Below are positions 6,172 to 22,581 of a stretch of 52,217 nt of DNA, piece by piece. The first letter of the stretch is position 1, and each line of letters opens with the position of its first letter. The notes beneath the pieces were generated by a model that worked only from the letters and a program-made list of their open reading frames with translations, ran no database searches and was not told where the DNA came from. The stretch spans positions 1-52,217 of the IMG/VR virus record IMGVR_UViG_3300020034_000023; one strand, 5' to 3'. The position numbers and the translations under genes were made by a program. This DNA comes from a virus.

Positions 6172-6330
6172 TCACAGTTTGCGTAAGATAGCCACCAGCA
6201 CCCAGAAGATGGCCTTCAGCGTGTAATACGACGCAACATCTGACCGCTCCTCCGCCACGCCGCTGTCGTAGTTCAGATGCGCGGAGACGAGATAATGAGA
6301 AACGAGTTCCTCTTTTTTGGCATCGTCCAT
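6172..6330 (-). CDS. Tail-anchored microprotein (52 aa)
   Basis: MDDAKKEELVSHYLVSAHLN with a C-terminal hydrophobic segment (LKAIFWVLVAILRKL). The start overlaps the ligase stop (TAATG), so it is probably coupled to ligase translation. Function unknown. Confidence 0.65.
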   Translation of the reverse strand: MDDAKKEELVSHYLVSAHLNYDSGVAEERSDVASYYTLKAIFWVLVAILRKL

Positions 6331-7241
6331 TAAGCCGCCTCCCCCATATCCTCCGGCGCGCGCCAGCCGACGAACTGACTGAAGCGGGGCTTGTCTTTGA
6401 TCCCAGTCGGTTGAAAGCGAAACTTCACGATGCGCCCGAGATACTCCGCCTGCGCGAGCCACATCAGACGGCACGTGTGCTCAGTCAGCGGGCCGGTGTT
6501 CACCTTATGGGCGACGCCGGTCTCACAGTTCTTGACCCAGAACGCCCCCACCATCCCGGTGGAAGTCTTATTCTGCTTGTGGCTACTCCGTGCCGTGTGC
6601 CCGAGGGCATTGATGGTCGCGACGTTGCCGTTCTGCATCTGTTCCACGAAGCCGGTCACCACGCCTTCGCCATCCACGAATCGCTTCAGCTTCAGCAAGG
6701 CCCCCTCGTTGACCGTAGAGCGCCCCTGCTTGTAGCGGCCGGTCAGGCTCCGAATCATCAGCCCTTCGTAGCCTTCCGCCACCCAGCGGTTCTCGTAGAG
6801 CGTCAGCGTCATCGCGTCGGCAATCTGCTGGTGGTCCACCATGCGGATGTCGGCCGGACCCTGATACGCCTTGACGATGGCGGTCGCTTTGGCGAATCGA
6901 TCCGCATACCCGAGTTTCGGGTCGTAGACGTCGAACACCCAGTAGGTAAGGGCTGGGTGTCCCGTGATGGTGCTCACCGCTGCCGCCGACTTCCGGAACA
7001 CATCCGGCGCGTTGGGGGGTCCGAGAATCAGCTCTCCATCGAGCCCTTCAAGAGCCGCTGATCCAAACACCGCTTGGGTGAATTTGTTCGGGTGCAGCTT
7101 CAGACTTCGGCTATACACCCGGCCGTCCTGAATGGTTGCCCGCACGCCATCGAGCTTCCGGCTCACGTAGAGCGGGAAGCGGGCAGGGCCGACGATGAAC
7201 GGGGCGGCAAGTGTCCCGGCTAACATGGGCTTGAATAACAT
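6330..7241 (-). CDS. ATP-dependent DNA ligase (303 aa)
   Basis: Nucleotidyltransferase motifs appear in order: motif I SRKLDGVRAT with the adenylated Lys near residue 30, motif III LDGELIL, motif IIIa WVFDVYD, motif IV EGYEGLMIRS, motif V LLKLKRF. A C-terminal OB-fold follows (FQPTGIKDKPRFSQFVGWR). Length fits small phage ligases of the T7 type. It seals nicks during replication, recombination and repair. ATG at 7241 has GGAGTGAGAC upstream. A promoter at 7411-7439 gives a leader of about 160 nt. Confidence 0.93.
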   Translation of the reverse strand: MLFKPMLAGTLAAPFIVGPARFPLYVSRKLDGVRATIQDGRVYSRSLKLHPNKFTQAVFGSAALEGLDGELILGPPNAPDVFRKSAAAVSTITGHPALTYWVFDVYDPKLGYADRFAKATAIVKAYQGPADIRMVDHQQIADAMTLTLYENRWVAEGYEGLMIRSLTGRYKQGRSTVNEGALLKLKRFVDGEGVVTGFVEQMQNGNVATINALGHTARSSHKQNKTSTGMVGAFWVKNCETGVAHKVNTGPLTEHTCRLMWLAQAEYLGRIVKFRFQPTGIKDKPRFSQFVGWRAPEDMGEAA

Positions 7242-7410: not shown

Positions 7411-7439
7411 AGCGTAACACACGCGGATTAGTTTGTCAA
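7411..7439 (-). promoter_or_regulatory. Sigma70-type promoter for DNA ligase
   Basis: TTGACA (7434-7439), 17 bp, TACGCT (7411-7416). The -35 box overlaps the final stop codon of the UGA-interrupted upstream gene. Confidence 0.75.
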
Positions 7440-7693
7440 GGTAGCACATATTCCTGTGACACATCTCCACCCGGTCGGCGACGCCCCGTGTCCGGGTGCC
7501 GCATCCAGCCTTCGGGCTCACCTTCTCCATCCCACAGCGCAAGGGCGACGACCGCCGCCCAGATGGTGTCGTATCACCACACGTTGTCGAACGACATGCT
7601 CCCGGTGAATCCGATACCGATCCGCGCCCGCCCCTCGAACAGGGGGTAGATCACCGCCGTGCGGTCGCCAAAGATGCGCTCAGGAAACGCCAT
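7436..7693 (-). CDS. Small phage protein with in-frame UGA at codon 40
   Basis: ATG at 7693 begins MAFPERIFGDRTAVIYPLFE. Codon 40 (7574-7576) is TGA, but the same frame continues as YDTIWAAVVALALWDGEGEP and then GWMRHPDTGRRRPGGD to a TGA at 7436-7438. I recall this kind of phage protein as one continuous chain with Trp-Cys-Tyr at this point (...GRARIGIG...WCYD...WDGxGEPxGW.RH...GRRRPDGD), so UGA would replace Cys. A hairpin, GGGCG with a GGTC apex, starts 13 bases after the UGA. Either the gene is split by a nonsense change, the base is an error, or UGA is recoded. If termination is normal the product is 39 aa (7574-7693). Confidence 0.55.
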
Positions 7694-8048
7694 TGCTCCG
7701 CCTTCTCCTACTCTGGTGCGGGGTGAGTGCTCGACTAGCCAGTGCTTGCACACGGGCAAAGGCCAGACTCCCGTCTTCTCGAATGCCGTTCCCGTCCGAC
7801 CAACAGCCATCATCGGCCGCGATGGCGGTCAACGCCTTGCGGTTCCGCTCGATTTCCTCCACGAAGCTCTCCAGCAACTTGTACGCGGCATAGGTATCGG
7901 CCCCGTAGATCGTCCCGCTCTGCGCAATCATGTGCTCCCGCAACTCCGGTGAGAGATCAGGGGAGAATTCATCCGGAGTCGCCTTCCCGGTTTTGAGAAT
8001 CTCCTTGGCCCGATTCAAATCATCGTCAAGCGTGTCGTAGTAGGACAT
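7680..8048 (-). CDS. Hypothetical acidic helical protein (122 aa)
   Basis: MSYYDTLDDDLNRAKEILKT. ATG at 8048 follows the upstream TAA by one base, with AGG seven bases upstream. The C-terminus is Arg/Ser-rich and overlaps the next gene by 14 bases. No family recognised. Confidence 0.6.
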   Translation of the reverse strand: MSYYDTLDDDLNRAKEILKTGKATPDEFSPDLSPELREHMIAQSGTIYGADTYAAYKLLESFVEEIERNRKALTAIAADDGCWSDGNGIREDGSLAFARVQALASRALTPHQSRRRRSNGVS

Positions 8049-8049
8049 C

Positions 8050-8124
8050 TTAATGCCTGCCAATCATCCACAACACGAGCCCCAGACAGAGAAACACGAT
8101 CACCGTGGCACTCGCGACTCCCAT
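8050..8124 (-). CDS. Membrane microprotein (24 aa)
   Basis: MGVASATVIVFLCLGLVLWM then IGRH; essentially one membrane helix. The ATG overlaps the upstream TGA (TGATG) and its TAA is one base from the next ATG, so it is locked into the operon. Function unknown. Confidence 0.5.
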   Translation of the reverse strand: MGVASATVIVFLCLGLVLWMIGRH

Positions 8125-10716: not shown

Positions 10717-11049
10717 CTAAATGGTAGGGTGGACCGGGCTCGAACCGGCAAGTCTAGGCTTTGCGGGCTCTAGGTGTTTGTCCTTTTCACCACCACCCTG
10801 TGTGAGACGACGACGCTTCCGGAGCGACCGCTCGACCGACCGCTCAATTTCATCATGCACGACCCGCTGCAACTCGGAGGTCTCTTCGGTCATCTGCCCG
10901 GTCTGGCTGAACCCTCCGAAACTTTTGGCGGGGACATGCTCTGCCACCTTCTGTGCGACTCGGCAGAAGATGGCATTGGCCTCTCTTCGTGACAAGCCCA
11001 CAGCGGTGGCGCAGCGCCGAGTGTAGCCGAGCAAACCTCTGAATGTCAT
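10717..11049 (-). CDS. Hypothetical basic protein overlapping a tRNA-like gene (110 aa)
   Basis: MTFRGLLGYTRRCATAVGLS starts in an ATGA overlap with the upstream gene. A helical, Arg-rich middle (VERSLRKRRRL) suggests nucleic-acid binding. The last 26 codons are the antisense-free readthrough of a tRNA-like element (ending GSSPVHPTI, typical of a translated T-arm), so the natural C-terminus may be accidental. Confidence 0.5.
   Translation of the reverse strand: MTFRGLLGYTRRCATAVGLSRREANAIFCRVAQKVAEHVPAKSFGGFSQTGQMTEETSELQRVVHDEIERSVERSLRKRRRLTQGGGEKDKHLEPAKPRLAGSSPVHPTI
10722..10799 (-). tRNA. tRNA-Cys(GCA)-like gene with enlarged anticodon arm
   Basis: The acceptor stem AGGGTGG/CCACCCT is perfect over 7 bp, with discriminator A and encoded CCA. 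The D-arm is GTG/CAC with a GG-containing loop, and the T-arm is GCCGG-TTCGAGC-CCGGT. The anticodon arm is 20 nt, not 17: CTAG/CTAG, a bulged A, GC/GC, and a 7-base loop CCGCAAA placing GCA in the anticodon, but with C instead of U at position 33. Total 75 nt plus CCA. It lies inside the 3' end of a coding region. It could be a degenerate or specialised tRNA. Confidence 0.55.
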
Positions 11050-20516: not shown

Positions 20517-20545
20517 AGTCTGCCACAAGTAGCAGGATTTGTCAA
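20517..20545 (-). promoter_or_regulatory. Sigma70-type promoter
   Basis: TTGACA (20540-20545), 17 bp, CAGACT (20517-20522). The -35 overlaps the terminase stop codon. Reads into the 212-aa gene. Confidence 0.7.
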
Positions 20546-22581
20546 GCATCGAAGGCGCGCGAGACATGGCGGAATTGCTCCACCGCTTTGTTCGAGAGGT
20601 GAATATGCGACGCCTCCTCCACAATCTCCGGCTGGTAGTTGGGCTGGTCCTTCTGTTCCTTCATCTTCTCCGGAGCCGACCGAATCCCCGAGGGCATCAT
20701 CAGGATGGGGATCTTGTGCAGGCCCCAGATTTCCCGTCGCATGGTCAGGCCGTAGACCACCCCGGCGAGGGCATCGGCGCAGTCTTTGCTCCCACCCGGT
20801 GGGTGGTCAATCTTGCCAGTCTTCTGGTCTCGTTCGAGCCGGAGAATCTCCTGTTGCACGAGCGGGTGATACGGGAGGTCTACCCGGCCTTCGTAGACCG
20901 CATTCTTCGTAAAGTCGTAGGGGCGCGTCGGGAGTTCATCCATCGACTGCTGGCCGGTCATGAACCCGGCCTGCTGGAGAATTTGCTTACTGTCCGTGCT
21001 CTGGAACTGGTCGAACGTCACCCACCGAATCCCGAGCCCCATCTGCAAGAGCACGAGCAGCACTTCGCGAATTTTGCTGAACATGATTTCGCTATTCTTC
21101 GGGGGTTTGATTTCAAGAATGCCGTCAATCCAGATTTGCGGCATATAGAGCGTCTGGTCGCCGGACTTCTGCACCTCTTGAAACCCCGTGCAGGTGCCGA
21201 CACACAACCCGGCGCTATCCTGCGACTGGGCGAGGTCGATGTGACAGAACCGAGGCAGGTAGGGTTTATGAAAGGCACTCTTCACCAGTGTGAGCCGTTG
21301 CTCCACGAAGTCTACCGGGCTCTGACTGAAGATCGAGATGTGCTCCTTTTTGAAGGCGGCATGCACCTTCGGCACTTCTAAGAAGAACGGGTGGCGCGCA
21401 AGGGTACTGACGCCCGCAATTTCTCGGAGCGCGTTGATGATGTCCTTCTCGAACTCCGAACGAAACTCCATCGGCACCGCCACCACGAGATGGCGATCTT
21501 CATCCGCCACTTCTTCGTCGTTGGTCAGAATGCGGGGCTTGCGCGTCATGTCGCCGCCGAACACGTGGAACCACCCGCGATTGCCGAAGTCACCGGGCTT
21601 GATATCCCACACCCGCTTGTCGTAGACGAAGATAGACGGGTCCGTCTCCGCTTCCTTCATCTTCTGGTCGGTGAACTGGCCGGGGTACTTCTTCGAGCTG
21701 ACGAGACACAGAATACCGGGGAGCTTCCCGTTCTCCATGAACCGCGATTTGCGGCGTCGCGCGATGGAGTTGTACACGAGGATCGCCTGATCGTAGGTGC
21801 CCTTGTCCACCGCCACCTTCGACTTCTCGATCACCGCCATGTAGTTCAGCTCATCGATCAAGCCCCCCATGACGTTCTGACCGATGGCGGCGGTTTCGGT
21901 ACCGGCGACCGGCAGTACCTCTACGCGATTCGGGAACACCAGCTTACTGGTCAATCCTTTGTCGAAGGGGAAGTGGCGATGAAAGTACGGACTCCCCTCG
22001 ATCATGCTCCGGAAGCGTTGGTAGTCCACCCCCTGTGCGAGCGTCTTCGTGATGCTCTGAAACACGAGGAGGATTTCCGAGGAGGGATCGAGTCGAAACA
22101 GCTTATGCGGCGACCGCATGCACGAGAGGAGATAGAGCTGATACGCGTTGGTATAGAGCGCCAACGTGGTCTTGCCCGAGCCAATGCCCCCCGTCATGAT
22201 GGCTTCCACGTAGGTGCCGTTATTCAGCTCCTCCCCGGCCGCCAAGATCGCGGGGTAAATTTCATGCTCTTTGTTCAGGTACTCCGGGGACACGACAAAT
22301 TCACGGAAGCTCACCGGCTGCCACCGATACTGCCCGAAGGTCACCAGATCCTGTGACGCCTGCTCGCCGAGTAACTCGGTCTCGATGCGCAACACGACTT
22401 GGGTATAGAAGAGCGTTCGCTCATTCAGGTCATGAATGTGCTGGCCCGCCATCCACACCGTCTGGGCATCCGCACTCCCGAGCGTGCGACGCAGATACAA
22501 CTGCGTGCGGGCGTGCAGATCGTCCAGCTTGCTGTGATGCTTCTTCGGTTTCGCGATGCCCCGCTTAAAGATCAGGGGCAT
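20542..22581 (-). CDS. terL: Terminase large subunit (679 aa)
   Basis: ATPase half: Walker A TGGIGSGKTT near residue 130, Walker B-like VMGGLIDELNYM. Nuclease half: acidic motifs CHIDLAQSQDSAGL, WVTFDQFQST and KDCADALAG, as expected of the RNase H-like DNA-cleaving domain. Length is at the long end for the family, with an N-terminal extension of about 110 residues. It pumps DNA into the prohead and cuts it. ATG 22581 overlaps the upstream gene by 17 bases; no strong ribosome site. Confidence 0.92.
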   Translation of the reverse strand: MPLIFKRGIAKPKKHHSKLDDLHARTQLYLRRTLGSADAQTVWMAGQHIHDLNERTLFYTQVVLRIETELLGEQASQDLVTFGQYRWQPVSFREFVVSPEYLNKEHEIYPAILAAGEELNNGTYVEAIMTGGIGSGKTTLALYTNAYQLYLLSCMRSPHKLFRLDPSSEILLVFQSITKTLAQGVDYQRFRSMIEGSPYFHRHFPFDKGLTSKLVFPNRVEVLPVAGTETAAIGQNVMGGLIDELNYMAVIEKSKVAVDKGTYDQAILVYNSIARRRKSRFMENGKLPGILCLVSSKKYPGQFTDQKMKEAETDPSIFVYDKRVWDIKPGDFGNRGWFHVFGGDMTRKPRILTNDEEVADEDRHLVVAVPMEFRSEFEKDIINALREIAGVSTLARHPFFLEVPKVHAAFKKEHISIFSQSPVDFVEQRLTLVKSAFHKPYLPRFCHIDLAQSQDSAGLCVGTCTGFQEVQKSGDQTLYMPQIWIDGILEIKPPKNSEIMFSKIREVLLVLLQMGLGIRWVTFDQFQSTDSKQILQQAGFMTGQQSMDELPTRPYDFTKNAVYEGRVDLPYHPLVQQEILRLERDQKTGKIDHPPGGSKDCADALAGVVYGLTMRREIWGLHKIPILMMPSGIRSAPEKMKEQKDQPNYQPEIVEEASHIHLSNKAVEQFRHVSRAFDA

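Follow-up and report, generated by a model that had tools for sequence, protein, structure and literature searches.

In a viral genome from IMG/VR (record IMGVR_UViG_3300020034_000023, positions 1 to 52,217; this whole stretch of 52,217 nucleotides is referred to as the window), a short gene on the minus strand is interrupted by an in-frame TGA, and the same frame continues beyond it. The locus raises the question of whether this codon ends the protein, is a mistake, or is read as an amino acid. A preliminary description of the DNA, made from its letters, had listed selenocysteine insertion, cysteine readthrough, a nonsense mutation and a base-call error as the options. Selenoproteins have so far been catalogued in bacteria, archaea and eukaryotes. 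The accepted signature of selenocysteine (Sec) is a bacterial SECIS-type signal combined with the existence of cysteine homologues, with criteria as in PMC1088965 and PMC12013277. Comparison of the window gene with its relatives points, with a probability of about 90%, to a small phage protein that would carry selenocysteine at residue 40 and would be decoded by the Sec machinery of the host.

The gene and its in-frame UGA

The gene comprises 85 codons on the minus strand (window 7693-7439) and begins with an ATG at 7693-7691; 45 codons lead from the in-frame TGA (7576-7574) to the final stop. The features of the locus are collected in Table 1. It had been proposed that the frame runs through the TGA at 7574-7576 into the natural second half of the protein, and this was confirmed on the minus strand, where one-piece Cys homologues match both halves. 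The upstream gene and the selenoprotein gene overlap by 14 nt, which suggests that the two may be translationally coupled. Elsewhere in the window, the terminase gene (20542-22581, minus strand) is nearest to those of the Stenotrophomonas phages DLP_5 and Summit, at about 57% identity, a likeness that weakly hints that the phage has a pseudomonadotan host.

Table 1. Features of the predicted selenoprotein locus in the window
Feature	Position	Strand	Evidence or remark
CDS, 85-residue predicted phage selenoprotein	7436..7693	-	UGA translated as residue; 45-member alignment across UGA; pLDDT 95.5
In-frame UGA, residue 40, predicted selenocysteine	7574..7576	-	aligned with invariant Cys of relatives
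SECIS-like hairpin GGGCGGC-GGUC-GUCGCCC, 7 bp (one G-U)	7543..7560	-	starts 13 nt past UGA; alignment, pair counts, codon-preserving null, bSECIS rules
GGUC apical loop, 20 nt after UGA	7550..7553	-	AGUU in 3/26 relatives
Final stop, UGA, ordinary terminator of the selenoprotein gene	7436..7438	-	translation
Upstream gene, 127 aa from TTG or 122 aa from ATG	7680..8063	-	14-nt overlap with selenoprotein gene start; no PHROG match
Downstream neighbour, phage ATP-dependent DNA ligase (context only)	6330..7241	-	phrog_114, 3.3e-52

The genetic code of the phage is not globally changed, since UGA is the usual stop in the same genes. In fact, TGA ends 51 of the 83 heuristically called ORFs of the window, and of the 40 recoded genes with a 3' end within the available sequence, 25 terminate in UGA. 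A genome-wide reassignment of UGA, as in code 4, was not found in the window, where UGA is the commonest stop. As UGA is still the main stop in the window and in the family genes, decoding of the internal UGA must depend on its context.

Relatives and the codon at the UGA column

IMG/VR and GTDB genomes were scanned with the guidance of profiles, which yielded dozens of loci, and Cys-type relatives were obtained by tblastn against phages and plasmids. These Cys-type relatives occur in Caulobacter, Brevundimonas and Sinorhizobium jumbo phages and on alphaproteobacterial, actinobacterial and Pseudomonas plasmids, and those read have W/Y-C-Y/F at the UGA column. A profile search reading through stops recovered 26 distinct sequences with TGA at the exact column and 27 with TGC or TGT, and among these 53 distinct sequences TAA, TAG and codons for other residues were absent from the column. 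The Trp-Cys-Tyr junction that the preliminary description gave for relatives was borne out, with cysteine in all 27 non-stop relatives in the context W/Y-C-Y/F.

A DNA-pattern scan, in which the codon, a few of the following bases and the hairpin core were the only fixed elements, was run with different codons. With TGA the pattern gave 43 matches, 38 of them in the family and 16 new; with Cys or Trp codons there were 23 matches and none in the family, and a looser pattern with TGC gave 49 matches, again with none in the family. With TAA or TAG there were two matches, one of which belongs to the family (L172, with TAG), and a looser TAG pattern added no further family members. Counted over distinct sequences, the codon column holds 42 UGA (window included), one UAG and 27 Cys codons, and no others.

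The recoded members are not near-copies of one another, as their nearest-neighbour identity is 46-73%, with a median of 66%. In the UGA branch 22 residues are invariant, and 18 of them follow the UGA. Homologues ending at the same place had been named as the finding that would speak against readthrough; close homologues also have the TGA and continue through it, and none of the relatives ends there. Stop types and Cys types are split by one tree branch with an SH-aLRT support of 95.6. In the first tree, a Cys-type sequence on a Miltoncostaea oceani plasmid (L008, 878-1210) sits on a long branch among the UGA members, which may reflect a reversion from Sec to Cys or an artefact of branch length. 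Three recoded members (L113, L120 and L121) are divergent, with altered or shortened C-terminal halves past the UGA, and the post-UGA half is more variable in them than in the main branch.

The UGA form was absent from 50,697 records of isolated phages, and the window protein used alone as a query against viral contigs gave no match. The search of 392 genomes of the phylum of the planctomycete discussed below gave no members beyond the known one.

A hairpin conserved downstream of the UGA

A 7-bp stem with a GGTC apex, 13 bases past the TGA, had been noted in the window and was confirmed at 7560-7543, with a fold energy of -13.5 kcal/mol. When the window gene was recoded synonymously 100,000 times with the window's codon usage, a 7-bp stem arose at the same spot in 22% of the recodings, and a stem with a GGTC cap in 2.7%. 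The window hairpin by itself is not clearly beyond chance; it proves little alone, so that comparison with relatives had to decide. In that comparison the UGA was seen again in 41 further distinct sequences, with equal spacing to a cap that is either GGTC or AGTT.

The hairpin statistics were based on the 26 UGA members that protein patterns had brought in and that were hence not selected for a hairpin; the 16 later members and L172 were left out because they had been found with the hairpin pattern. The distance from UGA to cap is constant at 20 nt in 26/26. The cap is GGTC in 23 of the 26 and AGTT in the other three, so that its two outer bases vary in concert. At least five contiguous base pairs under GGTC or AGTT are present in all 26 UGA members, whereas only one of the 27 Cys members reaches five contiguous pairs and none of the 27 has a GGTC or AGTT cap. 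In a codon-preserving null of 2,000 shuffles, at least five contiguous pairs were reached by a mean of 10.7 and a maximum of 20 of the 26 sequences, against the 26 observed. Furthermore, 164 pairs in total were observed against 134 +/- 3.8 in the codon-preserving null, and by seven-pair counting 90.1% of the cells are paired, compared with 73.9% in shuffles. The covariation score is 0.427, against 0.148 when shuffled and at most 0.103 when slid. The pair at columns 21 and 30 joins the third positions of two codons; six pair types occur there, 14 sequences carry changes on the two sides at once, and the pairing is intact in every sequence. Selection acts on the hairpin beyond the protein sequence, and substitutions at synonymous positions preserve its stem.

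The rules published for bacterial SECIS elements (bSECIS) require a loop of 3-9 nt, a stem of 4-16 bp, a G in the first two loop positions, a spacing of 16-37 nt and a minimum free energy of -7.5 or lower (PMC13188914). These rules are satisfied by 42 of the 43 recoded members, the exception being L133, whose hairpin contains one mismatch and is not stable enough for the energy limit. The window contains one other UGA with a GGTC-type hairpin (30169, plus strand; 5 bp, spacing 30), which is a weak candidate only, and candidates of the same kind in L044/L045, L017/L077, L094 and L104 look like shadow frames or chance.

The distance and apex of the hairpin had been likened to those of the formate dehydrogenase SECIS, and the comparison stands. 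The E. coli fdhF element, which served as a control and was recovered from 5,368 of the 5,426 E. coli genomes scanned, has its GGTC 18 nt after the Sec UGA. As in fdhF and other bacterial selenoproteins decoded through SelB and a SECIS, the in-frame UGA of the phage family is followed by a stem-loop within the coding region; the GGUC cap is shared with fdhF, at 20 nt from the UGA in the phage family versus 18 nt; and Cys homologues also exist, in the phage case in a sister branch. Unlike the phage stems, which are plain, the fdhF stem has a bulged U. The phage family also differs in lying in phage genomes, with no selB or tRNA-Sec found with them, and fdhF is a molybdenum enzyme whereas the phage protein is of unknown function.

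The protein and its family

The AlphaFold2 model of the 85-residue protein, computed from a 45-row alignment (pLDDT 95.5), consists of a small sheet and one helix, with the Sec/Cys position in strand 37-41 just ahead of helix 44-53. No fold match at E<=0.001 was obtained in PDB or BFVD, and no recognised redox fold was found for the model. Searches of Pfam and PHROGs assigned the window protein to no family, and NCBIfam returned a sub-threshold chance match only. The profile of phrog_24748, a family of unknown function, is matched by 18 of the 45 family members, the window protein not being among them. Both phrog_24748 and the Cys-type relatives in Caulobacter, Brevundimonas and Sinorhizobium jumbo phages share with the family W-C-Y followed by GEPxGWHRHPxTGRRR; the difference of the jumbo phage relatives lies in a cysteine codon, without the GGTC/AGTT hairpin. 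A shared gene neighbourhood that might serve as a clue to function was not seen among 26 loci. Since the Cys/Sec position is invariant, a catalytic or redox role is suggested for residue 40, which would be a functional residue, probably redox or nucleophilic.

Sec machinery in candidate hosts

The window was checked for SelB, and its tRNAs were checked by ARAGORN and Rfam; in the viral records searched, neither SelB nor tRNA-Sec was found above cut-off. Both were found above cut-off in the Planctomycetota metagenome-assembled genome (MAG) that contains L043 and in the Gemmatimonadetes MAG that contains L045. The contigs themselves carry phage-type genes (terminase and portal for L045, a DnaB-like helicase and a phage ATPase for L043), so that the link to a host is one of co-binning in a MAG. 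Moreover, the L045 locus (CADEFN010000011.1) is identical to L044 (CADEFQ010000013.1), a phage locus in a Proteobacteria MAG in which SelB and tRNA-Sec were not found above cut-off, whereas the Gemmatimonadetes MAG has both. As one locus was binned in MAGs of two phyla, at least one of the bins is contaminated. A search for SelB and SelC in the likely host had been recommended, and its outcome is divided: selB and tRNA-Sec are present in two co-binned MAGs, but one of the two loci recurs in a MAG lacking them.

Decoding of the UGA and alternative explanations

A mechanism is proposed in which the phage provides the coded UGA and the SECIS, while the host would provide SelA, SelB, SelC and SelD. 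When the host ribosome reaches the UGA, the downstream GGUC-capped hairpin of the mRNA would bind SelB carrying Sec-tRNA-Sec, the delivered selenocysteine would be inserted in place of termination, and translation would proceed to the real stop 45 codons on. The sister branch of the family has cysteine at this position and no SECIS. Among the options listed at the outset, selenocysteine insertion is strongly supported by the alternation of UGA and Cys, by the conserved and covarying SECIS and by the Sec machinery in two candidate hosts.

Stimulated readthrough would look much the same, with an in-frame stop that is conserved and a structure 3' of it, and both elements are present here. The hairpin could then slow the ribosome without any involvement of selenium, and a near-cognate Trp or Cys tRNA would sometimes read the UGA, giving short and long products. 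Such programmed readthrough is unlikely, however, as the other branch always has Cys and never Trp at the position, and the cap, spacing and energy of the hairpin fit the bSECIS rules. A mere obstacle to the ribosome would have no need of the conserved loop bases seen here; both SelB-bearing MAGs also contain tRNA-Sec; and the UAG variant described below fits known UAG-Sec hosts. Even less probable is a true stop, whether created by sequencing error, left in a decayed gene or separating two small proteins. A single contig could not exclude it, and the window hairpin taken singly does not stand out from its codon-usage background, but the UGA is common to 42 distinct sequences with a median nearest-neighbour identity of 66%, which also disposes of the base-call error or nonsense mutation suggested before. 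The two halves share one reading frame, are both conserved and align with Cys homologues that are uninterrupted, and at this position TAA never occurs and TAG occurs once, with a perfect hairpin in a member that was found by the hairpin pattern.

The residue aligned with the UGA is Cys, and a tRNA-Cys-like gene had been described at 10722-10799, so that reading of the UGA as cysteine by a tRNA-Cys of phage or host had to be considered as well. ARAGORN does call a tRNA-Cys (GCA) there, on the minus strand and overlapping the ORF at 10717-11049, but no Rfam model recognises the sequence even at E<=1, and the call is probably false. Its GCA anticodon does not match UGA, which is a normal stop here. 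No other stop is as common as UGA in the window and in these genes, so that a tRNA-Cys able to read it would have to be steered by a signal from the context; SECIS and SelB already offer such a signal, and cysteine decoding can be given scarcely any credence. Selenocysteine insertion is the reading retained in what follows.

Significance of a probable phage selenoprotein family

A viral selenoprotein has a precedent in molluscum contagiosum virus, which encodes a selenoprotein glutathione peroxidase and relies on the Sec machinery of its host, as is proposed for the phage family. That case differs in that the virus is eukaryotic, its SECIS is of the eukaryotic 3'-UTR type and its enzyme was acquired from the host. 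In the open-access literature searched, which takes in no preprints and few subscription papers, no report of a phage selenoprotein was found. The words phage, virus and viral are absent from a May 2026 review of the prokaryotic selenoproteome, and phages and viruses go unmentioned in the 2025 deep-Sep paper.

If the proposed decoding is true, phages own selenoprotein genes and depend on the selenium machinery of their hosts, Sec decoding becomes a possible determinant of host range, and the family is a new one of unknown function with a fold unmatched in PDB. Because ordinary gene-calling programs end such a gene at its UGA, further examples may lie hidden in viral data.

A family member with UAG

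In L172, on the minus strand of contig IMGVR_UViG_3300031939_000001 (base 755 of the reverse complement), an in-frame TAG replaces the TGA. The sequence reads ...LSYSDGW-TAG-YESPQAAVVAF... and is followed by a perfect 7-bp GGTC hairpin, which makes L172 a candidate UAG-selenocysteine phage gene. In the actinobacterial family Geodermatophilaceae, UAG is documented to encode selenocysteine by way of a tRNA-Sec with a CUA anticodon (PMC5330540). The likeness of L172 to those genes (PMC5330540) is that UAG stands in place of UGA, followed here by the hairpin of the family; the difference is that L172 lies on a phage contig, for which the host is suggested by the head module and GC content. The 63-kb contig has a GC content of 72% and encodes a capsid and a terminase similar to those of Mycobacterium and Gordonia phages; an actinobacterial host is suggested by this actinophage-like head module and the high GC.

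A broader model was proposed that a widespread selenoprotein family is native to phages of Sec-using bacteria and that the Sec codon of one member has been switched to UAG in step with a UAG-Sec host, phage recoding thereby tracking the identity of the host tRNA-Sec. The balance is tipped modestly in favour of this model as a whole. The UAG member would then show viral recoding following a rare variant of the host code, and it is an attractive inference that the codon of L172 tracks the code of its host.
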